A stretch of 64,000 bases of DNA from Kribbella sp. ALI-6-A (GTDB taxonomy: Bacteria > Actinomycetota > Actinomycetes > Propionibacteriales > Kribbellaceae): NCBI RefSeq assembly GCF_001984195.1, contig NZ_MTQN01000010.1, positions 868,001-932,000 of the forward strand. The letters run 5' to 3'. The stretch's first letter is position 1, and each line of letters opens with the position of its first letter. The translations under genes and the position numbers were made by a program. A model generated the notes under the pieces. That model was not told the origin of the DNA. It saw only the letters and a program-made list of their open reading frames with translations, and ran no database searches. Shown piece after piece: positions 9,379-57,612 of the stretch.

Positions 9379-10517
9379 TCCGCGAACGAACCGTCGTCAT
9401 GTGTCCAGGACGGGTTGCGCCACGCATGCCCCTTCTGATCAGCAGCCCGTACGGCGGCCTCGTCGACCGTGATGCCGAGCCCGGGCAGGGGATTCCACTC
9501 CGCGTGCCCGTCGACCCACGTGAACGGCGCCGGATCCACGACGTACGCCGTGAGGTCGCTCGCGACGTTGTAGTGGATCCCGCGGCTCTGCTCCTGGATC
9601 AGGAAGTTCGGCGTCGCGAACGAGACCTGCAACGAAGCGGCGAGGGAGATCGGTCCGAGCGGGCAGTGCGGCGCGAACAGCGCGCCGTGCGTCTCGGCCA
9701 GTGACGCGATCCGCCGCAGCTCGGAGATGCCGCCCGCGTGCGACACGTCCGGCTGGACCACGGCGACCCCGGCGTCCAGGGGCGGCAGGAACTCCGCGCG
9801 GCTGTAGAGCCGTTCTCCCAAAGCGATCGGCACGGTCGTGCCGTCCACGATCGACGGCAGGTGACGAAGGTGCTCCGGCAGCACCGGCTCCTCGACGAAG
9901 AGCGGATGCTGGTCCTCGACCGCCCGCAGAATCCGGCGCGCGCCCGCGACTCCGACGCGGCCGTGCAGGTCGATCGCGACGTCCCGCTCGTCTCCGAGCG
10001 CCGATCGCGCCGCGGCCAGCCGGTCGACGATCGCGGCGATCTCCGCCCGGGACGGCGACGGCTGGATCCGCCCGCTGGCGTTCATCTTCACGGCCGTCAT
10101 CCCGGCCGCGACCTGCTCGGCCACCTGGTCCGCGATCTCGGCCGGCTCGTCGCCGCCGACCCACGCGTACACCCGTGCCCGGTCGCGGACCCGGCCGCCG
10201 AGCAGCGACGACACCGGAGCGTCGTACACCTTGCCGGCGATGTCCCACAACGCGTGGTCGAGTCCGGCGACGGCGCTGCTCAGCACCGGGCCGCCGCGGT
10301 AGAACCCGCCCTTGCTGAGGATCTGCCAGTGCCGCTCGATCTGCAGCGGGTCCTGGCCGATCAGGTACTCCGACAGGACCTCGATCGCCGTCCGCACCAC
10401 CTCGGCGCGGCCCTCGACCACCGGCTCACCCCAGCCGACGACCCCGTCGCTGGTCTCGACCCGGCAGAACAGCCACCGGGGTGGGACCAGGAACGTCTCG
10501 ATCCGCTCGATCTTCAC
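9372..10517 (-). CDS. dgoD: D-galactonate dehydratase
   Basis: 381 residues of the enolase superfamily (mandelate racemase subgroup). It matches the E. coli DgoD pattern from end to end as I recall it: FRVETSDGVVGWGEP-like start, GQDP, GGFYRGGP, DLHGRV (metal Asp and catalytic His), FVEEPV (metal Glu), GERLYS (metal Glu), QPDVSHAGGI, APHCPLGPI (second catalytic His) and the ending WRNPSWTHDDGSFAEW. It converts D-galactonate to 2-keto-3-deoxygalactonate. GTG 10517 overlaps the regulator stop by GTGA. Order on the minus strand is SDR, GntR, dgoD, epimerase, a compact galactonate operon. Confidence 0.94.
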   Translation of the reverse strand: MKIERIETFLVPPRWLFCRVETSDGVVGWGEPVVEGRAEVVRTAIEVLSEYLIGQDPLQIERHWQILSKGGFYRGGPVLSSAVAGLDHALWDIAGKVYDAPVSSLLGGRVRDRARVYAWVGGDEPAEIADQVAEQVAAGMTAVKMNASGRIQPSPSRAEIAAIVDRLAAARSALGDERDVAIDLHGRVGVAGARRILRAVEDQHPLFVEEPVLPEHLRHLPSIVDGTTVPIALGERLYSRAEFLPPLDAGVAVVQPDVSHAGGISELRRIASLAETHGALFAPHCPLGPISLAASLQVSFATPNFLIQEQSRGIHYNVASDLTAYVVDPAPFTWVDGHAEWNPLPGLGITVDEAAVRAADQKGHAWRNPSWTHDDGSFAEW

Positions 10518-11251
10518 CGGCGGCTCCGCGTCTTCGACGTCCGTACGCCGGTACTGCGCACGTCCGACAGGTCCTCGGCCGCCTTGGCCAGCAGCTCCCG
10601 CATCGCCAGCTCGGCGCCCTCGGGATCACCGGCCCGCACCGCCTCGACCACCCGCTGGTGACTGGGCACCGGATCGTCGGACGGTTTCGCCTTGTGCACC
10701 AGCCGATCGCGGCCGGCCAGACCGGTCTCCATGATGACCTCCATCTTGGTCAGCAGCTCGTTGCCGGTCGCGGCCAGCAAGGCCTTGTGGAACGCGAGGT
10801 CGGCCTGGACCGCGGCCAGGTCGTCGGTCGCCGAGGCCATCGCGGCCAGCGCCGTGTCGAGCGCGGCCAGGTCTGACTCCTCGGCCCGGATCGCGGCCAG
10901 CCGGGCAGCGGCCGGTTCGACGATGCCGCGTACCTCGTGCAGCTCCTCGAGCAGCTCGGGCCGGACGTCGTCGTCGAAGTGCCAGCGGATCATGTCCGCG
11001 TCCAGCAGGTTCCAGTCCGAGCGCGGGCGGACGAACGTGCCGCGCTTCTGCCGCGCGTCGACCAGTCCCTTGGCGGTCAGCACCTTCAGCGCCTCCCGGA
11101 CGGCGGTCAGGCTGACGCCGAGATCGGCCTGCAGGTCGGGCACGTTGATCGTCGCGCCTTCGGGGATCTGTCCCGACAGGATGCGCTGTGCCATCACCTC
11201 GACGATCTGCCCGTGCAGACCTCGCGACGTCCCTCGTCGAATCCCCGTCAC
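10514..11251 (-). CDS. GntR-family (FadR/FCD subfamily) regulator, DgoR-like
   Basis: 245 residues: an N-terminal winged helix (RILSGQIPEGATINVPDLQ, then LGVSLTAVREALKVL and GLVDARQKRGTFVRP) and a C-terminal FCD ligand domain with RGIVEPAAARLAA and conserved His residues for metal or ligand (FHKALL, SHQRVVEA). WNLLDADMIRWHF matches the linker region of E. coli DgoR. The GTG start has GGGGAGAG upstream. Being directly coupled to dgoD, it very likely responds to galactonate and controls this operon and perhaps the divergent ABC operon through the palindrome at 12139-12151. Confidence 0.85.
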   Translation of the reverse strand: MTGIRRGTSRGLHGQIVEVMAQRILSGQIPEGATINVPDLQADLGVSLTAVREALKVLTAKGLVDARQKRGTFVRPRSDWNLLDADMIRWHFDDDVRPELLEELHEVRGIVEPAAARLAAIRAEESDLAALDTALAAMASATDDLAAVQADLAFHKALLAATGNELLTKMEVIMETGLAGRDRLVHKAKPSDDPVPSHQRVVEAVRAGDPEGAELAMRELLAKAAEDLSDVRSTGVRTSKTRSRR

Positions 11252-11357
11252 GTCGCTCTCCCCATCACTGTGCTGCTCGTCGCCGTCCGGTCCGCCATCC
11301 AGCGTGCCGCGGTCCTGTCCCGTGTTCTTGTACCCGCGCAGATCCCGCTCACCGCTG

Positions 11358-12068
11358 TCACGCCGAGTCCTTGACCGCGGACCAGCCGCCGTCGACCGCC
11401 AGCGTCGCCGCGGTCACGAACGATGCCTGCTCCGACAGCAGGAAGGCGACCACGGCCGCGACCTCGTCGGGCCGGCCGAGCCGTCCGACGGCGGTCGCCC
11501 GCGCGCTCTGTTCCTTGCCCTCGGCACTGACCCGGTCCCAGGCCGCGGTGTCGACCGGGCCCGGAAGCACGGTGTTCACCCGGATCGAGCCGCCGTACTC
11601 GACCGCCAGCTGGCGGCCGAGCGAGACCAGGGCGCCTTTGGTCGCGGCGTACGCCGGGTGGCCGGGGATGCCGGCGACCGCGTGCACCGACGACACCAGC
11701 ACCACCGATCCGCGGGCGGCCGCGAGGTCGTCGTACAGGGTCCTGAAGGCGAGGAACGCGGCGGTGAGGTTGACGTCGAGCTGTCGCTGCCAGGAGGCCG
11801 GGGTGAGTTGGTGGGCCGGCTGAACGTCGACGGTGTACGCGTTGCTGACCAGGCCGCCGATCGGGCCGAGCTCGTCGCGTCCGCGGGACAGCACCTCGGC
11901 CCAGGTGTCGGGGGAGGAGACGTCGCCCAGGACGGCGATGGCGCGACCCGGGATCTCCTTGCAGGGCTGGATGTCCACCTGGACGACGGCGTCGCCGTCG
12001 GCGAGCAGCCGCTCGGTGCACGCCGCACCGATCCCGGTGGCGGCACCGGTCACCACGATCACGCGCAC
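11358..12068 (-). CDS. SDR sugar dehydrogenase, probable galactose dehydrogenase
   Basis: 236 residues. Cofactor site VTGAATGIG, catalytic Ser in VSSVHA, and YAATK active site are all intact, and the C-terminal GGW is typical of classical SDRs. GTG 12068 is preferred over GTG 12086 because GGAAGGG precedes it and the Rossmann strand starts at once. As first gene of the galactonate operon it is well placed to oxidise galactose to galactonolactone, the first step of the De Ley-Doudoroff pathway. That role comes from context; a lactonase gene is not visible here. Confidence 0.8.
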   Translation of the reverse strand: MRVIVVTGAATGIGAACTERLLADGDAVVQVDIQPCKEIPGRAIAVLGDVSSPDTWAEVLSRGRDELGPIGGLVSNAYTVDVQPAHQLTPASWQRQLDVNLTAAFLAFRTLYDDLAAARGSVVLVSSVHAVAGIPGHPAYAATKGALVSLGRQLAVEYGGSIRVNTVLPGPVDTAAWDRVSAEGKEQSARATAVGRLGRPDEVAAVVAFLLSEQASFVTAATLAVDGGWSAVKDSA

Positions 12069-49761: not shown

Positions 49762-49781
49762 GGGTGGTGCTAGCCCTACCC
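49762..49781. promoter_or_regulatory. Imperfect palindrome overlapping the end of the condensation-domain gene
   Basis: GGGTGGTGCTAGCCCTACCC pairs with itself at 8 of 10 positions. It covers the stop of the gene at 49776 and lies about 57-76 bp upstream of the exporter ATPase start, where an operator controlling the exporter alone would sit. Confidence 0.4.
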
Positions 49782-50870
49782 CAGCAGGTAGGCCCGGACG
49801 CCACTCGCCACGGCCGTCACCAGCGGCTCGCTCCAGTCCGAGCCGTCCCCACTGAAGTGCCCGGCCAGTACGCCGTCCGCCGTCGGCCGCACCCGGATCG
49901 CCAGCGCGTCCGCGAGCCCGGTGTCCTTCGGCCCGGCCGCCCCGACCACTTCGCCCCGGATCGGCCCGAAGTCGTAGCCTCCCGGCCACTGCTGCGGCAC
50001 GTACTCGAAGAACGGCGTCCGTGGCGGCACCTCGAGTTCCAGGACCGGGTAGCGCGCGTAGCGGCTGCAGCCGACGACGGCGTCCCGCATGGCCGGTACG
50101 TCGGCCGCCAGCGAGCCGGTCGAGCATGGGACGGCCAGCACCGACGGCACGATGCAGGGGCCGAGCACCCGCTGCCAATCCGGCCGGTCGCGCTTGCTGA
50201 AGAGCGTGTTGAACACGAGCGTGTCTCCTGCCGTCGGCTCCATCGCCGAAGCCAGTGCGGCCAGCAACGTCACCAGGGCAGTGCTGCGGTGCGAGCGGGT
50301 CAGTTGCTCGACCTGCGCGGCCTCTGCGGCTGAGAGCAGCTCGCTCCGGTAGGCGAACGGAGAGCCCTGAGTGCGGGAGGGCTGCGGGCAGATCTTCGCG
50401 TCGGTGACTCGGCTCCGCCACCAGGTGCTGGCCGCATCGGCGTTCCGGCTCATTTGCTCGGCTTCGTCGAGGAGGTAGTCGGCGTACTGGGGAGCGGGTG
50501 GGAGGTCCTCGCCGGAGTACAGGGCGGCCAGCTCGGTCAGCGCGAGCCACAGGCTGACCGGGTCGGAGACCATGTGGTGGAGGTGCAGGGTCAGTCGGTC
50601 GCCGGAGAGCTGCAGCCGAATGGGAGCAGCCAGCGGCACCGGGACGTGCAGGGCGGCTTCCCGTACGAGCTCGAGTTCAGCAACACCAGAGTCTGTACGG
50701 AGTATGTCGTGTCGTCGCTGCAGGGTGTCGAAGGCTGCAGCCAGTCGCCCAGCGTCCAGCTCGCCGTCCAGCGCGAGCATCGCGTTCATGGTGAACCAGG
50801 GCCCGAGAGCGAAGCCAGGTCGCCGCGCGTCGAGCTCCAACGCGAAGGTTTGCCAGAGCGAGGTCGTCAC
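49776..50870 (-). CDS. Stand-alone condensation-domain (NRPS C-like) acyltransferase
   Basis: 364 residues, shorter than the usual 430-450. The catalytic HHxxxD motif is HHMVSD (98-103), preceded by RHDILRT and followed by PQYADYL-type sequence as in NRPS C domains and PapA acyltransferases. The last gene of the eight-gene operon; GTG 50870 overlaps the preceding stop by GTGA. It probably moves an acyl or aminoacyl group from the carrier protein at 54936 onto an amine or hydroxyl, perhaps of the sugar-like partner made by the other enzymes (inference). Confidence 0.85.
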   Translation of the reverse strand: MTTSLWQTFALELDARRPGFALGPWFTMNAMLALDGELDAGRLAAAFDTLQRRHDILRTDSGVAELELVREAALHVPVPLAAPIRLQLSGDRLTLHLHHMVSDPVSLWLALTELAALYSGEDLPPAPQYADYLLDEAEQMSRNADAASTWWRSRVTDAKICPQPSRTQGSPFAYRSELLSAAEAAQVEQLTRSHRSTALVTLLAALASAMEPTAGDTLVFNTLFSKRDRPDWQRVLGPCIVPSVLAVPCSTGSLAADVPAMRDAVVGCSRYARYPVLELEVPPRTPFFEYVPQQWPGGYDFGPIRGEVVGAAGPKDTGLADALAIRVRPTADGVLAGHFSGDGSDWSEPLVTAVASGVRAYLLG

Positions 50871-51904
50871 AGCAGCTCCTTCGAGTAGTCCGGCACGTCC
50901 GCGGCGAGCAGAGCGGTGTGCAGTTCCTCCAGCACCTCCACGGCGAAGTCCTTGCGCTGCCAGTCCTCGAACGAGATGCCGTAGCCCAGCGAGATCCACA
51001 GGTCCGCGTTGCGTCGCTCGTGGGCGCCGAACGGCTCCAACAGAACGAGCGGCGTTGCCGACCACAACGAATCCAGAAGGGTCCCGCCGCCAGGTTTGCT
51101 GACCGACGCCAGCGCCTGGCGACACAGGTCGAACGACCCGTGGTGACCGGTCCGCTGCACGAACCCCTGGCCCGCCGGGCCGAACGGCGGGTAGCCGTCG
51201 TCGAGCCATGGATGCCAGTCGGGGTCGATCATGAAGTAGCGCACGCCACTGGTCGACAGGTCACCTTGCTCGTAGGCGATGACGTCCAGCTCGAAGCCGA
51301 CGGACAGCAGCTCACCGGCGCGCTCCCGGTACGTGCCCATGCCCCAGCCACCGCCGTGCACCAGCAGCCGCCGGTCGCGCTCGGCCCACGGCACCGGGGC
51401 GTCGCGGGTGACCGGGATGCTGCAGGGCACGCCGCCGCCATCGGCATCGGCGAGCCACACATGCCGTAGAGGCAGTGAGGTCGCACCGGCCTTGTCGAAC
51501 GACGGTGAGCGCACCGAGTCCACATGGCATACGTCCACCGCCACCGGGCCGTGCTTTGCGACGTACTGCTCCAGCAGAGTGAGCCAGAAGCCGCTGAGGA
51601 CGACGAAGCGGGTGATGCCGCGCCGCTGCCAGTCCGCGAAGAGCTGGTCGACCGCGGCGGGGTCCACCGAGACTGCTGCGTTGCGGGCCAGCTTCTGGCC
51701 GGCGAGCGCGACGCGGAAGTCGCGGTGGAAGGCCTGCTTCGACCGGGCGGTCGTCTCCAGGGTCTGCGGTGGCATCAGCCGCTCCAGCACCGACACGTAC
51801 GCCGTACCGCCCTGCTCGCGGATCCGGTCGGCCAGCAGCAGCCCCGGCACGTGGACGCCGAGCGCAACGCCGGACGTCAGGATCTCCACGACAGCGCCTG
51901 TCAC
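50867..51904 (-). CDS. GT-B-fold glycosyltransferase-like protein
   Basis: 345 residues. The first strand VEILTSGVALGVHVPGLLLA looks like the acceptor half of a MurG/UGT-type enzyme. The C-terminal half has SVSKPGGGTLLDSLWSATPL and EPFGAHERRNADLWISLGYG, the donor-binding signature region of GT1/GT28 enzymes. GTG 51904 shares GTGA with the kinase stop. It likely transfers a nucleotide-activated sugar to the cluster product. The family assignment is moderate because catalytic residues are not strictly conserved. Confidence 0.7.
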   Translation of the reverse strand: MTGAVVEILTSGVALGVHVPGLLLADRIREQGGTAYVSVLERLMPPQTLETTARSKQAFHRDFRVALAGQKLARNAAVSVDPAAVDQLFADWQRRGITRFVVLSGFWLTLLEQYVAKHGPVAVDVCHVDSVRSPSFDKAGATSLPLRHVWLADADGGGVPCSIPVTRDAPVPWAERDRRLLVHGGGWGMGTYRERAGELLSVGFELDVIAYEQGDLSTSGVRYFMIDPDWHPWLDDGYPPFGPAGQGFVQRTGHHGSFDLCRQALASVSKPGGGTLLDSLWSATPLVLLEPFGAHERRNADLWISLGYGISFEDWQRKDFAVEVLEELHTALLAADVPDYSKELL

Positions 51905-52806
51905 TGCGCCGCTCCCAGCGCAGCCAGCTCCTTGGCCAAGTGGCGCTGGACCAGCTTTACCGTAGCCTCGTGCTCCGGGCCTGCGTAGCCGCGCGGCGTG
52001 CCCTCGACCAGCATGATCAGGTACAGGTAGACCCGGTAGAGCGACAGCCGCTCGCGGTCGATGTCGGCGCCGTACCCGGCCAGCAACTCGTCGTCCACCG
52101 TGCTGAACAGTGTCAGCGAGACGAACTCCGCGACCGGATCGCCCCAGAACGCGCGCTCCCCGTCGATCAGCCCGCTGATCCGCCCGCCGTCGACCAGGAT
52201 GTTGCCGTCCCACAGGTCGAAGTGGATCAGCCGCGGCGTCCGCACCGTGTTCAGCAGCTCGAACCGGTCGAGCACCAGGTGCCGCGAGACCCCCTCCGGC
52301 AGCTCCACCCCGAAGCGCTCGGCGTCGGCCAGCACGTCGTCCAGCATGCGCAGGAAGGCGGTCGCCCACGTGGACAGCAAGCCACGCTGCGGATACCCGA
52401 ACCCGTCCGCGCCGACCACCTCGTGCAGACTGCGCACGATCGCGCCCAGCTCCCGCCGGTACGACCAACGCTCGGCCGGAACGCTCTGCAGCAACGTCGT
52501 CCCCGGCAGCGCGGTCATCAGCAGCAGCTCGGCATCGGCGTACACGACCTCCGGCACCGGCGCCTTGCCGCGCGCGGCCTGGTAGAACTCGGTCTCGGTC
52601 CGGATCAGCGCCTGCTCGTAGGCCAGCCCGGGGGAGGACGGGTCCGGCGCGAGCTTGAGCACCAACTGCCGTTCACCGACCGCCAAGCGGTAAACGGTGT
52701 TGTAGGTGCCCTCGGTCAGCTCCTCGTGGTCGAGCAACTCCCGCCGCGCGATCCCGGCGCGCTCCAGCAGGGCCTCGATCGCCGCGCGGTCCAGCTGTCG
52801 TTTCAC
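51901..52806 (-). CDS. APH/choline-kinase-like small-molecule kinase
   Basis: 301 residues. ATP lysine K51 (LVLKL), Brenner-type catalytic loop LIHFDLWDGNILVD (H195, D197, N202) and metal Asp D215 in LIDGERAFWGDP. Histidine-Phe-Asp in place of HGD is tolerated in this family. GTG 52806 overlaps the oxidoreductase stop by GTGA. Within a biosynthetic operon it may phosphorylate a sugar or amino-sugar intermediate, or inactivate the product as self-resistance. Confidence 0.85.
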   Translation of the reverse strand: MKRQLDRAAIEALLERAGIARRELLDHEELTEGTYNTVYRLAVGERQLVLKLAPDPSSPGLAYEQALIRTETEFYQAARGKAPVPEVVYADAELLLMTALPGTTLLQSVPAERWSYRRELGAIVRSLHEVVGADGFGYPQRGLLSTWATAFLRMLDDVLADAERFGVELPEGVSRHLVLDRFELLNTVRTPRLIHFDLWDGNILVDGGRISGLIDGERAFWGDPVAEFVSLTLFSTVDDELLAGYGADIDRERLSLYRVYLYLIMLVEGTPRGYAGPEHEATVKLVQRHLAKELAALGAAQ

Positions 52807-53765
52807 CGGTTCTCCCTTTGGGACAAGGCGTCCCGATAGATCGCTTCCATCAGCTCGATTCGCGGCACGGCGTGCGCCAGGTCCTCGCCGGCGTCGTCGA
52901 CGATCCGGGCGAGCTGATGCTCGTAGTACGCGGTGGCTGGGAAGCCGATCCCCTCACGCTCGCCGTCGGCCGTGGTGACGACGAGGTTCAACGGTACGGC
53001 GCCGAGCACCGGGCGGAGGAAGTTGCGCAGCTTCACAGTCGCCCGGTCGAAGGTGAACACGTGCTCGGCGACATGGTCCGGACCGACCGCGCAGGTCAGC
53101 GTCGCCTTCGAACCCGAGGCCCAGTGCAACGACGCCTCGAAGTCGCGGTCCACGCCGTTCGGGCCGTCGAAGGCCGAGAATCCCTGGTACGCCGTGGGAT
53201 CGAGCCCGATCGTTGCCTGCAGCGCCTGGAGCCAGTAGCTCGCGCAGTCGTGGAAGATGCCGCCACCCAGCTCGGGACGGTCGCGGTATCCGCCCGGCGC
53301 GGGAACGGCGAAGGTCATCCGCGTTTGCACGGACCGCAGTACGCCGTACCGGCTGTCGGCGACGAAGGAGCGGACGGTTTCCTGCCACGGGTGGCCGGCG
53401 GTGGCGACCGCCTCGAAGACGCGGGTGTGTTCGGCGGCGAAGCAGAGCTCCTCGGCCTCGGCCGCGGTCAGGCAGAGCGGCTTCTCGACGATCACGTCCT
53501 TGCCGGCGACCGCGGCGCGGACCGCCCAGCGGTGGTGCGCGGAGTTGTGCAGGGAGATGTAGACGGCGTCGATCGCCGGGTCGGCGAGCAGGGCCGCGTA
53601 GCTGTCGTAGACCAGCGGAATGTCGTGACGGCTCGCGAACTCCTTGGCGCGCACCGGGTCGCTCGCCGCGACCGCCCGCACCTCCACTCCGGTCTTGGCG
53701 GCCGGGCCGAGCATCGTCCGGACGGCGATCCCGGTGGCCCCGATCAGGCCGATCTCAAGCGGCAT
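52803..53765 (-). CDS. Gfo/Idh/MocA-family sugar oxidoreductase
   Basis: 320 residues. Rossmann motif GLIGATGIA (6-14), VYISLHNSAHHRWA, the family hallmark EKPLC (94-98) and the C-terminal substrate domain with GGGIFHDCASYW. Members oxidise or reduce sugar hydroxyls or keto groups with NAD(P). It overlaps the ATP-grasp gene by 11 bp. In this cluster it may create the keto-sugar or imine step needed for an unusual cyclitol or aminosugar. Confidence 0.88.
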   Translation of the reverse strand: MPLEIGLIGATGIAVRTMLGPAAKTGVEVRAVAASDPVRAKEFASRHDIPLVYDSYAALLADPAIDAVYISLHNSAHHRWAVRAAVAGKDVIVEKPLCLTAAEAEELCFAAEHTRVFEAVATAGHPWQETVRSFVADSRYGVLRSVQTRMTFAVPAPGGYRDRPELGGGIFHDCASYWLQALQATIGLDPTAYQGFSAFDGPNGVDRDFEASLHWASGSKATLTCAVGPDHVAEHVFTFDRATVKLRNFLRPVLGAVPLNLVVTTADGEREGIGFPATAYYEHQLARIVDDAGEDLAHAVPRIELMEAIYRDALSQRENR

Positions 53766-54939
53766 CGGATCTCCCTCGCGGTGTCAGGCCGGCCGCGGTG
53801 ACCGCAGCCAGCAGGCGGTGCTGCCACTGGGCGAGCTCACCGGCGCGGCAGAAGATCGCGACGTACACCCGGCCGCCGGGCGCGGTCAGGTGACTGCCGT
53901 TGAGCACGAGCGCTCCGGGGCGATCCCCGCTGGACAAGCAGCCGTTCAGAGCGTGCAGGACGTCGCGAATGCCCTTGCCCGGCGAGAGATTCAGTTCGAG
54001 CTGCCACAGGTGAGCGGTGAGGTCGTCGGCCCGCCGGTCGAGTTGCAGGGCGAGCAGGCCGAGCGACTGACGAGCGTTGATCTCCAGCACCGGTACGACT
54101 GAGCCGTCGTCGAGCAGCATCGCGTCGATCCCGACCGGACCCCAGTAGCCGGCGGTGCTGATCGCGGCCACCACCTCGGCCAGCGACTCGGCGTACCAGC
54201 CCTGGTCGATCAGCGCGGCGGGCGCGGGGCTGGAGCCGAAGTGCCGGAAGCCCTTGTTGGTCAGCTGCTGCAGGCCGAGGAACTCCCACGAGCCGTCCCG
54301 CCGCACGTGCAGGTGACCGGAGAAGTCGTGCGCCTTCGGATACTTCTGCTGCACCAGCAGCTCGATCCGTTGCCCGGTTTGCTTGCGCAGCACCCGCTCG
54401 ATCGCTCGCAGTACGCCGGGAGTGGTGACCTCGAGCAGTGCCCGGCCGGAGACGCCGTACGGGTCCTTGATCAGGGTACGGAAATCGAGATCGGTGACCG
54501 CGGCAACCAGTTCGTCGACCGAGCGGACCACTCGGCCCGCGCCCGGAAGCCCGAGCTGCGTGACGAGCTCGTTGGACCAGGTTTTCGAGTTGACTTTGGC
54601 AACGACCTCGGGTGAAGGCAGGCCGGCGAGTGGGGCGAGAACCGCGTAGGGCTCCAGCGGACCGTCGGCCAGCAAGGGGTCGTCGAGCAAGTGGCGCTCG
54701 ATCGGGCCCGAGCCGGCGTCGTCGATCGACTTGTGGTCGAAGGAGACCCCGTAGCCGGCGAGGATCTCCGGATCCATCGGGCGCCGGGTGATCAGGACGT
54801 CGCCCGGCGCGCAGAACCCGGCCAGCAGCTCGTCCATCGTGTCGACGGCGGGATCACCGCCGCCGACCGACGGCAGCACGGCCAGGTCGTCCGGTCGCCA
54901 CCACGACTCCGCGTCGAACGTACCGAACCGGACGGTCAT
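53755..54939 (-). CDS. ATP-grasp carboxylate-amine/thiol ligase
   Basis: 394 residues. The ATP-grasp core has the lysine and glycine loop LIKDPYGVSG (156-165), central ELLVQQKY, substrate region HDFSGHLHV and metal-binding end GIDAMLLDDG plus VLEINAR (285-290). The N-terminal 115 residues are not recognised. It overlaps the carrier-protein stop by ATGA. In butirosin biosynthesis BtrJ, an ATP-grasp enzyme, loads glutamate on the free ACP BtrI; the same pairing here and the lack of any adenylation domain suggest this enzyme charges the carrier protein. This is inference from gene pairing. Confidence 0.82.
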   Translation of the reverse strand: MTVRFGTFDAESWWRPDDLAVLPSVGGGDPAVDTMDELLAGFCAPGDVLITRRPMDPEILAGYGVSFDHKSIDDAGSGPIERHLLDDPLLADGPLEPYAVLAPLAGLPSPEVVAKVNSKTWSNELVTQLGLPGAGRVVRSVDELVAAVTDLDFRTLIKDPYGVSGRALLEVTTPGVLRAIERVLRKQTGQRIELLVQQKYPKAHDFSGHLHVRRDGSWEFLGLQQLTNKGFRHFGSSPAPAALIDQGWYAESLAEVVAAISTAGYWGPVGIDAMLLDDGSVVPVLEINARQSLGLLALQLDRRADDLTAHLWQLELNLSPGKGIRDVLHALNGCLSSGDRPGALVLNGSHLTAPGGRVYVAIFCRAGELAQWQHRLLAAVTAAGLTPRGRSDAA

Positions 54940-55199
54940 CCGGCCTGGCCGGCCAGTCGGGCGACGAAGGTGCTGAACTGACGGACCGAGCGCAGGTCGT
55001 CGAGCTGCAGTTGCGGGTAGTCCAGCTCGAGGTCGAACTCGTCCTCGATCGCGAGCAGGAACGTGATCGTCTGCAGGGAGTCCAGTCCGTACTGCTCGAC
55101 CAGATCGGCCTCGGAGCCGATCTCGTCCGCGGTGGTTCCGTTGTCCAGAACCTTGGCCAGCACGACCTTGACGCGGTCCTCGATCACAGTGGTGGACAT
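54936..55199 (-). CDS. Free-standing acyl/peptidyl carrier protein
   Basis: 87 residues, acidic. The 4'-phosphopantetheine attachment Ser41 lies in EQYGLDSLQTITFLLAIEDE, and a D-D-x-S-like helix start and LQLDDLRSVRQ helix complete the four-helix fold. GGAG precedes the ATG at 55199, 2 bp after the radical SAM stop, and the end overlaps the ATP-grasp gene by 4 bp. It is the likely carrier of the substrate shared by the ligase and the condensation-domain enzyme. No phosphopantetheinyl transferase is encoded nearby. Confidence 0.92.
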   Translation of the reverse strand: MSTTVIEDRVKVVLAKVLDNGTTADEIGSEADLVEQYGLDSLQTITFLLAIEDEFDLELDYPQLQLDDLRSVRQFSTFVARLAGQAG

Positions 55200-55201
55200 G
55201 C

Positions 55202-56377
55202 TCAGACTCCGTTCAGGTAAAGGAGGATGCACTTCGAGCAGACCGGCATCATGCCGTTCTCGGACATGATCCGGCGGACCTCACGAAACGACTGGCTCTG
55301 CCAGAGCTCGCCGACCGGCTGGTCGTACAGGTTGCCGACCACGAACTCGGGGAAGAACTTGCACGAGCTGACCGCGCCGTCGGCGTGCACCTCCATCCGG
55401 TTCGACACCGCGAGACACTTGCTGCGGTGCTGGGCCGGCCGGGAGGTGCCGAGGATGAAGTCGGTGACCTCGTCGTCCTCCAGTTGCGGCTGGTAGCGCA
55501 GCCGGACGTTCCAGGGCCGGGAGGCGAGCCGGGCCATCGAGTCGCGCAGCGTCGGCAGCTCCTCCTCGGGCAGCTGGTAGGTGTAGCTGTGCCAGGTCGG
55601 CTTCTTGGTGTCCGTGCTGGGGTTCAGCCAGGAGAACGTCTTCTCGTACAGGCGGTCCATCGACTCGGCGACCTCGGGGCTGATGTACCAGGGGAACTGG
55701 AAGTAGACCGTGTTCACGCCGAGTTCCTCGGCCCACTCCATGAACTCGTACATCTTGTGCACGGTGACATGGCTGACCATGCACGACAGCGACAGCTCGC
55801 CGTCCCACGTGCCCGCGCGTTTGAGGTCCAGCATCAGCTGGATGTTGTCCATCGTGCGCTTGAAGGTGCCGCGGCCGCGCAGTGCCTCGTGGTCCTCACC
55901 CAGACCGTCCAGACTGACCAGCAGGTTGAGGTTCTCGCCGATCCGCAGCAGGTCGTCCAGTTTGCGCTTGAACAGCAGGCCGTTGGTGCACATGTTCACC
56001 GTCCGCGGGTACTTCTCCAGCAGCGCGGCGACCTGGTCGAACCTGGTGTGCATCAGCGGCTCGCCGCCCCACAGGAACAGCTTCGAGCGCACCGGCGCCG
56101 TCGTCCGCAGGACGTCCTCGACCACCGAGAGGTCGAGCTCGGTCTTCTGCTTGACGGCGCTGAAGTCGCGGAAGAAGCCCTGTTCGTTCCACTGGTAGCA
56201 GTGCGTGCAGCGCAGGTTGCAGCGGTAGGTGAGCTGCAGGCTGACCTCCTGCGGCAGCGGAGCGGCGTACGTCGGGTCGGCGAGCAGGTTGCGCCGGGCC
56301 TTGGAGCGGATCGACACGGTGTGCTTGATGTCCGCGAATTCCTTGGTGTTCAGCGTGCGGGTGGTGGTGGGACGCAT
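55202..56377 (-). CDS. Radical SAM/SPASM-domain enzyme
   Basis: 391 residues. The SAM-binding cluster motif is CNLRCTHC (C53, C57, C60). GGEP follows in LFLWGGEPLMH, and MCTNGLLF and LLVSLDGLGEDH mark the barrel. The C-terminal SPASM region has separated cysteines (SKCLAVSNRMEVHADG, SSCKFF, VCSKC) for one or more auxiliary 4Fe-4S clusters. AGGAGG precedes the ATG, which shares one base with the MFS stop (TGATG). No precursor peptide gene is nearby, so the substrate is more likely carrier-bound or a small molecule than a RiPP. Confidence 0.9.
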   Translation of the reverse strand: MRPTTTRTLNTKEFADIKHTVSIRSKARRNLLADPTYAAPLPQEVSLQLTYRCNLRCTHCYQWNEQGFFRDFSAVKQKTELDLSVVEDVLRTTAPVRSKLFLWGGEPLMHTRFDQVAALLEKYPRTVNMCTNGLLFKRKLDDLLRIGENLNLLVSLDGLGEDHEALRGRGTFKRTMDNIQLMLDLKRAGTWDGELSLSCMVSHVTVHKMYEFMEWAEELGVNTVYFQFPWYISPEVAESMDRLYEKTFSWLNPSTDTKKPTWHSYTYQLPEEELPTLRDSMARLASRPWNVRLRYQPQLEDDEVTDFILGTSRPAQHRSKCLAVSNRMEVHADGAVSSCKFFPEFVVGNLYDQPVGELWQSQSFREVRRIMSENGMMPVCSKCILLYLNGV

Positions 56378-57612
56378 CAGACCTCCTGGTGGGTGGCTGT
56401 GGCGACGAGCAGTGCACTGGCTCCGGCGATCACCCCTCCCGTCGCGAGGACGAGGACCAGACCGGTCGCGGCACCGAGCTGTGCGCTCAGTACGCCGCCG
56501 GTCAGGCCTCCGGTGATCGCGCCGAGCGGCACGGTGGACGAGGTGAGCGTGCGGGCGGTCGCGTGCACGGTGCTCTGCAGACCGGCCGGGGTGATCTGCT
56601 GGCGGACGCTGGTGGTGACGACGTTCCACACCGGCAGCCAGACCGAGGCGCAGATCCGGATCACCACCAGTGCGAGCGCGGGAGCGCTCAGCAGGCAGAG
56701 CGGAACGGCCAACCAGCACACGGCTTCCAGTCCGGTGAGGACCAGCGTCCGCCGTACGCCGATGGTCGCGGCCAGCTTGTTGGCGACAACAGCGCCGAGC
56801 AGACCGCCGACCGAGCCGGCCGCGATCAGCAGGCCACCGGCGAGGCTCGACAGGCCGAGCACGCGGTACGCGAACAGCAGCAGGACGGCGTCGACCATGC
56901 CCGAGCCGAAGCTGCGGATCGCGGCCGCGCAGACCAGGCGGCGCAGCAGGTGATGCTGCCAGACGAAGGCGAAGCCGGTGCGGATCCGGTGGGGGAGTGG
57001 TTCGCGCATCGGCTCGGGGCGCGGCTCGACGGTGGTGATGCGGGTGCGGCCGAAAGCCGAAGCCAGGAAGGGGATCGCGCAGAGCAGCAGACCGGCGTAC
57101 GGGGTGATGGTGCGGAGGAGGAGGCCACCGAGTGCGGGGCCGACGAGCTTGGACAGACTGTCGGAGCTCTGGAGCTTGGCGTTCGCACCGACCAGGTCGC
57201 GTGGTTCGACGAGTGCGGGCAGGTACGACTGGCCGGCGATGTCGACGAAGACCATCGCGGCGCCCGCGACGGCGACCACGAGACACAGTTGAGGGACGCT
57301 GACCCAGCCGGCCAGTGCGGCGAGCGGGACGCTGGCGAACGCGGCGAAGCGCAGCAGTTCGCCGCCGATCATCACCCGCCGGCGAGGAACGTGGGCCAGC
57401 GCGGCCCCGGCGACCAGACCGAGCGTGGGATAGGCGAACCAGCCGAGCGCGGACAGCACGCCGACCTGGGCCTCGCTCGCATCGAGCGTGAGGATCGCGA
57501 TCGTGGGAACGGTGAACCCGGTCAGCCGGTCCCCGACGAAGCTCGCGGTCTGGCTGCCCCAGTACCAGGACACGTCGGTCCGCGATCGCACCGCCCGAGT
57601 AGTTGCACCCAC
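56377..57612 (-). CDS. MFS exporter, first gene of the biosynthetic operon
   Basis: 411 residues with about twelve membrane helices of the MFS_3/EntS-type exporter class (GDRLTGFTVPTIAILTL near the start, GLVAGAALAHVPRRRVMIGG as the A-type loop). GTG 57612 has GAGTCGAGG upstream. It heads the eight-gene run 57612 to 49776 and probably exports the product. Confidence 0.88.
   Translation of the reverse strand: MGATTRAVRSRTDVSWYWGSQTASFVGDRLTGFTVPTIAILTLDASEAQVGVLSALGWFAYPTLGLVAGAALAHVPRRRVMIGGELLRFAAFASVPLAALAGWVSVPQLCLVVAVAGAAMVFVDIAGQSYLPALVEPRDLVGANAKLQSSDSLSKLVGPALGGLLLRTITPYAGLLLCAIPFLASAFGRTRITTVEPRPEPMREPLPHRIRTGFAFVWQHHLLRRLVCAAAIRSFGSGMVDAVLLLFAYRVLGLSSLAGGLLIAAGSVGGLLGAVVANKLAATIGVRRTLVLTGLEAVCWLAVPLCLLSAPALALVVIRICASVWLPVWNVVTTSVRQQITPAGLQSTVHATARTLTSSTVPLGAITGGLTGGVLSAQLGAATGLVLVLATGGVIAGASALLVATATHQEV

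Follow-up and report, generated by a model that had tools for sequence, protein, structure and literature searches.

A compact orphan carrier-protein gene cluster family of Kribbella, Pseudonocardiaceae and Streptomyces with a candidate self-resistance kinase

In butirosin biosynthesis the ATP-grasp enzyme BtrJ charges the free carrier protein BtrI, and to our knowledge such charging of carriers is known from few pathways, of which butirosin is one. BtrI and BtrJ are named for butirosin (PMC11405602), and BtrN from the same cluster is a radical SAM enzyme of the twitch kind, which is defined by one auxiliary cluster (PMC9012708). Two further systems share parts of the gene set described here. 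The capuramycin cluster, according to the excerpted text of its description (PMC6384614), also has an immunity phosphotransferase, a glycosyltransferase, a carrier domain and a glucose-1-phosphate thymidylyltransferase gene, but its product is a nucleoside antibiotic, the carrier domain is loaded by adenylation (CapU), the amide comes from a transacylase, the radical SAM protein is a putative methyltransferase and the excerpt mentions no ATP-grasp enzyme. The Pseudomonas Pbo cluster (PMC8473136) likewise brings together radical SAM, ATP-grasp, carrier, condensation and MFS genes, but includes AMP-binding and ketosynthase genes and a radical SAM protein modelled on lysine 2,3-aminomutase, with no glycosyltransferase named.

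The window, meaning the whole stretch of DNA that was analysed, comprises 64,000 nt of Kribbella sp. ALI-6-A (NZ_MTQN01000010.1, 868,001-932,000; GCF_001984195.1). Start and stop codon positions place eight minus-strand genes at 49776-57612, each overlapping its neighbour or at most 2 bp away from it. Domains were identified with Pfam and NCBIfam-type models, except for the ATP-grasp enzyme and the glycosyltransferase, which had no significant Pfam match and were assigned by fold search. Beginning with the exporter, which leads the unit in Kribbella and in U. tangerina, the genes are:

56377-57612, minus strand: MFS exporter (Pfam MFS_1 1.2e-23; TIGR00900 6.4e-44)
55202-56377, minus strand: radical SAM enzyme with four-Cys twitch domain, 391 aa (Pfam Radical_SAM and SPASM)
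54936-55199, minus strand: free-standing carrier protein, 87 aa, phosphopantetheine Ser41 (Pfam PP-binding 3.7e-9)
53755-54939, minus strand: ATP-grasp ligase, candidate carrier-charging enzyme (fold matches 8ynd/8ynq, BesA, PGM1)
52803-53765, minus strand: Gfo/Idh/MocA oxidoreductase, KijD10-like, candidate NDP-sugar ketoreductase (Pfam GFO_IDH_MocA 5.2e-21; 3rbv 1.3e-26)
51901-52806, minus strand: APH-family kinase, candidate self-resistance gene (Pfam APH 1.9e-25)
50867-51904, minus strand: GT-B-like glycosyltransferase, no Pfam family (MurG/GT1-like fold matches, low-confidence model)
49776-50870, minus strand: stand-alone condensation enzyme (Pfam Condensation 3.5e-22)

In this order the spacings are -1, +2, -4, -11, -4, -4 and -4 bp. 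Because the same gene order with near-identical overlaps recurs in nine further Kribbella as well as in Umezawaea, where one locus is without the MFS and kinase genes, the packing goes beyond chance, and the tight eight-gene linkage proposed in the initial annotation holds. All motifs it listed were found as well: CNLRCTHC in the radical SAM enzyme, Ser41 of the carrier in GLDSLQ, EINAR in the ATP-grasp enzyme, EKP in the oxidoreductase, HFDLWDGN in the kinase and HHMVSD in the condensation enzyme. As in butirosin, where they stand in one antibiotic cluster with sugar chemistry, a free carrier, an ATP-grasp enzyme and a four-Cys twitch radical SAM enzyme occur together, here beside candidate sugar enzymes; the Kribbella cluster differs in having no visible aminoglycoside core genes, in its predicted release by a condensation enzyme and in a radical SAM protein that is related to BtrN in the twitch region only.

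Among Kribbella the gene set is present in 10 of 38, among Pseudonocardiaceae in about 24 of 392, and a few Streptomyces have it too. In the 39 loci compared, active-site motifs are kept wherever the gene is present, and mean pairwise identity ranges from 76% for the radical SAM enzyme (the highest) to 36% for the condensation enzyme (the lowest). The seven core proteins diverge in step, with correlations of r = 0.80-0.94 between their pairwise identities. The single unit suggested at the outset is supported as a linked, co-evolving one, and cluster divergence tracks that of the flanking genes. One locus (L091) has neither kinase nor condensation enzyme, and carries a D-Ala-D-Ala-ligase-like gene in their stead. 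Gene set, linkage, intact motifs and correlated divergence are all read directly from the sequences. Viral contigs yielded no relatives, and the only match to the glycosyltransferase in a phylum-wide sample was the window itself. TetR, ABC exporter and sugar-ABC genes were rejected as cluster parts, being directly adjacent to each other in genomes without the cassette, and the DHPS-, LOG- and DapE-like genes common to L065-L070, recognized from their translations, were judged to be housekeeping flanks of related genomes. No described match to the gene set was found in the open-access literature, in line with the earlier failure to assign a product class, and the cluster is an orphan biosynthetic family among carrier-protein pathways. 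Sandramycin was considered as the product, as K. sandramycini has the cluster (L011/L022), and was set aside: it is a depsipeptide that presumably needs a multimodular synthetase, which the cluster lacks.

Adenylation-domain searches gave no match within the 64-kb window or at 33 of 38 relative loci, and the matches at the other five all lie outside the core; to that extent the pathway does lack an adenylation domain, as first proposed. The phosphopantetheine serine of the carrier and the ExNxR motif of the ATP-grasp enzyme are kept in 39/39 loci, and the two genes adjoin in every one. Together with the xHxxxD motif of the condensation enzyme (containing the catalytic second His of HHxxxD), kept in all 38 loci having the gene, this bears out that the serine of the carrier and the active site of the condensation enzyme are intact. 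The carrier has some similarity to the free-standing carrier AmcB of cispentacin, far under the family cut-off (NF058660, 6.7e-8, 32.6 bits against a cut-off of 80 bits). Loading the carrier is a candidate function of the ATP-grasp enzyme, and unproven. The enzyme may not act on the carrier, because its affinities are with ligases of amino acids and peptides and its distant relatives stand apart from the other core genes: the nearest solved folds (the 8ynd/8ynq peptide ligase, BesA and PGM1, at about 20% identity) are all of that kind, two relatives weakly match a PreAtp-grasp domain, and homologues in Eremiobacterota and Planctomycetota, rejected as cluster kin, have neither a carrier nor any other core gene beside them in the flanking stretch examined. 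(Three of four distant relatives, L016-L018, adjoin DUF455; TAL-effector matches to residues 15-44 were taken as low-complexity noise.) It could instead be a free ligase making a dipeptide-like or amide intermediate. A host enzyme would then charge the carrier, for example with a fatty acyl or another acyl group, and the intermediate would be acylated by the condensation enzyme; fatty acid amides are known to be made by condensation enzymes that stand alone (abstract of PMC13142362). We regard this as a possibility to be taken seriously, though not the expected outcome: the ATP-grasp enzymes of this family, which share their fold with the three ligases, always stand beside a carrier, and most loci have no other charging enzyme.

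The radical SAM enzyme carries its auxiliary cysteines as C321-x17-C339-x40-C380-x2-C383, a four-Cys twitch, and CxxxCxxC plus the four-Cys C-terminal site are present in 39/39 loci. The "SPASM cysteines" of the initial annotation can be refined: a Pfam SPASM match is there, but the pattern is that of a twitch rather than a two-cluster SPASM domain. The twitch family model NF033640 matches at 4.4e-29, under its cut-off. Likeness to BtrN is confined to residues 317-383 (E about 0.001), and a profile search with the enzyme returned no BtrN chain at E<=1e-6. A role as a defence protein was rejected, since the viperin model matches the core only (6.7e-17), more weakly than several NCBIfam radical SAM models.

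The oxidoreductase has Gfo/Idh/MocA domains with EKP and is homologous to the sugar 3-ketoreductase KijD10 (3rbv, 1.3e-26); it is absent from four loci. In Streptomyces, rfbA and rfbB adjoin L081, L092 and L095, and rfbA adjoins L093 and L094. Given these neighbours and the KijD10-like oxidoreductase, the glycosyltransferase probably uses a dTDP-deoxysugar. The best fold match of this enzyme is MurG (E=4e-4, on a model of pLDDT 56), its GxHxP and GGGT motifs are kept in 39/39 loci, and the His of its N-terminal GVHVP loop aligns by eye with the catalytic His of MurG/GT1. On this modelling it looks like a whole GT-B enzyme, not only the C-terminal half first described.

Of the 10 Kribbella that carry the cassette, 9 have it at the same fixed site, and non-carrier Kribbella have a clean empty site at that position. 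Four non-carrier genomes retain the kinase alone, at the exact insertion site; these solitary kinases are intact, have dN/dS of 0.22-0.38 and reflect at least three origins. The initial annotation had the oxidoreductase, kinase and glycosyltransferase shaping a sugar, which the rfbA/rfbB neighbours and the KijD10 likeness favour for the first and last of these; the kinase, with the HxDxxxxN of an APH domain, does not appear to belong there. Because four Kribbella kept only this gene at the exact site, we read it as self-resistance, which from sequence comparison fits its retention better than sugar-shaping. CapP of capuramycin producers is a precedent for a self-resistance phosphotransferase (PMC6384614). 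Phosphorylation of the sugar or product as a biosynthetic step, with solitary copies recruited to another use after cluster loss, would agree with the position of the kinase between oxidoreductase and glycosyltransferase in the Kribbella operon and its presence in 37/39 loci. We consider this unlikely: the kinase is retained alone at the original site with at least three origins, at L043, L078 and L079 it is transcribed away from the operon, and it is absent from L091 while other genes remain. L013 has no kinase in cis, with related kinases elsewhere in that genome.

The favoured reading, which we hold to be about as likely as not, is of a complete small cluster whose bioactive product is a glycosylated acyl or aminoacyl compound, with a carrier route and kinase self-resistance; for such a pathway we infer all substrates, the sequence of reactions and the charging of the carrier. 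The ATP-grasp enzyme would load the free carrier with a carboxylate that it has activated, probably an amino acid, and the twitch radical SAM enzyme would catalyse a single, invariant radical step, either on the unit bound to the carrier or on its precursor. The Gfo/Idh/MocA enzyme would complete a dTDP-deoxysugar for transfer by the GT-B-like enzyme, and the condensation enzyme, the most variable part between clusters, would pass the acyl unit from the carrier to an amine or a hydroxyl group. The MFS protein would export the product, and the APH-family kinase would inactivate it within the producer. Counting against this reading are the ligase-like fold of the ATP-grasp enzyme and its distant homologues without core partners, the genes missing at L091, at L013 and at the four loci that lack an oxidoreductase, and the low confidence of the glycosyltransferase model. 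That the product is instead a signal, metallophore or envelope component tuned by the kinase is consistent with the lack of known bioactivity and with cluster divergence tracking the flanking genes, as in a long-resident trait, but patchy presence, a dedicated exporter and repeated loss with one kinase retained make it quite improbable. More speculative still, and a long shot, is an adenylation-free thiotemplated antibiotic family in which the ATP-grasp enzyme charges the carrier, the radical SAM enzyme acts on the bound acyl group, the condensation enzyme joins a deoxysugar-bearing acceptor, non-producers keep the immunity kinase, and the D-Ala-D-Ala-ligase-like gene of L091 is a resistant target copy, which would make cell-wall dipeptide synthesis the target.

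These comparisons define a compact orphan cluster family whose radical SAM enzyme is nearly invariant and whose members lie in Kribbella, Pseudonocardiaceae and Streptomyces; if the ATP-grasp enzyme charges the carrier, a butirosin-like charging route would extend to the whole family. The fixed site, empty sites and solitary kinases, likewise observed in the genome sequences, are new in this analysis; the solitary kinases predict a bioactive product, point to a candidate immunity gene and would offer ready susceptible and immune Kribbella for bioassay.

The eight linked minus-strand genes that the initial annotation placed at 49776-57612 were confirmed by coordinates, spacings, Pfam and NCBIfam matches and fold models, with intergenic distances, from the MFS gene to the condensation gene, of -1, +2, -4, -11, -4, -4 and -4 bp. 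The cassette is an orphan biosynthetic family, new as a combination. Six genes were named directly by Pfam and NCBIfam, leaving the ATP-grasp and GT genes, neither of which has a significant Pfam match. The ATP-grasp structure model (pLDDT 73) gives predicted fold matches to 8ynd/8ynq, BesA and PGM1, and the low-confidence GT model (pLDDT 56) resembles MurG best, then GT1-like enzymes.

Genes of the cassette in the window
56377-57612, minus strand, MFS (Pfam/NCBIfam)
55202-56377, minus strand, radical SAM (Pfam/NCBIfam)
54936-55199, minus strand, carrier protein (Pfam/NCBIfam)
53755-54939, minus strand, ATP-grasp (predicted-structure fold matches)
52803-53765, minus strand, Gfo/Idh/MocA oxidoreductase (Pfam/NCBIfam)
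51901-52806, minus strand, APH kinase (Pfam/NCBIfam)
50867-51904, minus strand, GT (low-confidence fold model)
49776-50870, minus strand, condensation enzyme (Pfam/NCBIfam)

We compared 39 loci: the window and, from relatives, L013, L014, L019-L027, L043, L061-L081 and L091-L095. All 39 keep the radical SAM CxxxCxxC and twitch (four-Cys auxiliary site) spacing, ATP-grasp ExNxR, GT GxHxP and GGGT, and the carrier Ser, which lies in LDSL or VDSL in 35, LNSI or INSI in L043, L078 and L079, and IDSL in L091. Also kept are the oxidoreductase EKP (35/35; gene missing from L073, L075, L076 and L077), kinase HxDxxxxN (37/37; gene missing from L091 and, in cis, from L013) and condensation xHxxxD (38/38; gene missing from L091). 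Mean pairwise identity is 76% for radical SAM, 59% for GT, 55% for the carrier, 54% for the oxidoreductase, 50% for ATP-grasp, 49% for the kinase and 36% for the condensation enzyme. These identities correlate between genes (r = 0.80-0.94, to which the genomes' shared ancestry contributes), as expected of a unit travelling together. The near-invariant radical SAM step and variable condensation step suggest that the clusters may share one common core with differing decoration.

The condensation gene sits between oxidoreductase and kinase in L065-L070, and in L043, L078 and L079 is transcribed, with the kinase, away from the remaining genes. An LLM-type monooxygenase gene is common to L043, L078 and L080, and a terpene-synthase-like gene to L043 and L078, where it follows the divergent condensation gene (L043:16207-18676; L078:14529-18534) and in L078 precedes a gene with squalene-hopene-cyclase-type domains. 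L091 (genome G1020) carries a D-Ala-D-Ala-ligase-like gene at 10406-11482, whose first 10 bp overlap the end of the GT gene; that genome's best match to the family is located elsewhere. In this single case the gene might act as a substitute ligase or be a resistant copy of the target. At L023:6058-7692 and L024:11917-13338 the match to the MFS gene is split in two, with a gap between the parts, as if by insertion or frame change.

The initial interpretation, in which ATP-grasp loads the carrier and the oxidoreductase, kinase and GT shape a sugar or cyclitol, is supported in part. Searched with a profile made from AMP-binding proteins of the host itself, the window showed no adenylation enzyme and 33 of 38 relative loci no match; the profile matched flanking proteins in L073 and L076 and a PaaK-like gene in L062-L064. 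The carrier adjoins ATP-grasp in every locus, mostly without an adenylation enzyme, which, together with the butirosin precedent for ATP-grasp charging of a carrier, favours carrier charging as a candidate function. Against it, the predicted structure comes closest to ligases of amino acids and peptides, and no carrier lies near the distant homologues known from other phyla; both points fit a free ligase. We consider the prospects of carrier charging roughly even, and a free ligase possible but on the doubtful side. ATP-grasp homologues directly adjoin a DUF455 gene, a recurrent pair, in MAGs of Eremiobacterota (L016:8893-10870), an unplaced bacterium (L017:1384-3385) and Planctomycetota (L018:8756-10840).

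For the GT, a dTDP-deoxysugar donor is favoured by rfbA and rfbB together in three Streptomyces loci (L081, L092 and L095) and rfbA in two more (L093 and L094), taken with an oxidoreductase profile matching the sugar 3-ketoreductase KijD10 (3rbv, E=1.3e-26). In Kribbella such a donor would have to derive from genes elsewhere. At L093:236-3577 and L094:16278-19691, rfbA lies directly upstream of the cluster together with a beta-lactamase-fold protein and a clavaminate-synthase-like oxygenase that scores above the NF043003 cut-off.

The window comes from a Kribbella host, and the ATP-grasp gene was found in 10 of 38 genomes of that genus, among them K. sandramycini (G020), all with the complete eight-gene order; nine of these cassettes share one site, and that of L025 (G031) lies elsewhere. 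The eight genes are all present in Umezawaea tangerina (L014) too; U. endophytica (L013) lacks the MFS gene in cis as well as the kinase, and its genome holds a second, divergent cluster (L043) with an adjoining kinase. Strong GT profile matches (E<1e-100) occur in 24 of 392 Pseudonocardiaceae genomes, the family to which Umezawaea belongs, and in 4 of 345 Streptomyces genomes. The profile also matched two Streptomyces plasmid records (one, NZ_CP108509, possibly the matching G1200 contig already among the four) and G1020 (1 of 249 in its genus); in a 397-genome phylum sample, the window alone matched. A Pseudonocardiaceae GT fragment with an in-frame stop (G657:C14:249316-249450) is likely a decaying copy. 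L012 (NZ_JAAGLV010000009.1), titled Streptomyces sp. SID13031, matches the Kribbella genome G027, and its name looks wrong.

Where a Kribbella genome lacks the cassette, TetR directly adjoins an ABC ATPase and permease; the cassette thus lies between genes resident at the site. Ten of the 38 genomes carry the full cassette, 24 neither cassette nor kinase, and four the kinase only, the other seven genes not being recognisable there even as remnants.

Solitary kinases between TetR and ABC ATPase
L121:11719-12606, genome G009
L128:4173-5069, genome G037
L143:4998-5897, genome G014
L144:5468-6346, genome G015

All four are intact, with HFDLWDGN and DGE motifs, and their pairwise dN/dS of 0.22-0.38 indicates that the protein is still constrained. 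They fall in three places in the kinase tree, where well-supported branches force at least three state changes; two of the placements are nested within groups of cluster kinases and so look like leftovers after loss. Cassette-gene divergence tracks that of flanking genes (r = 0.65-0.91), pointing to long residence and repeated loss at the Kribbella site. Umezawaea has cluster-type kinases at L044:9211-10044 (50% identity) and L045:9390-10286 (35%); the stretches covered around them contain no core gene, and they are possible further solitary resistance genes. Keeping only the kinase is what would be predicted for an immunity gene, and CapP of capuramycin producers offers a precedent for phosphotransferase self-resistance (PMC6384614). 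This indirect evidence makes the kinase a candidate immunity gene against the cluster product, a new functional assignment open to cheap testing.
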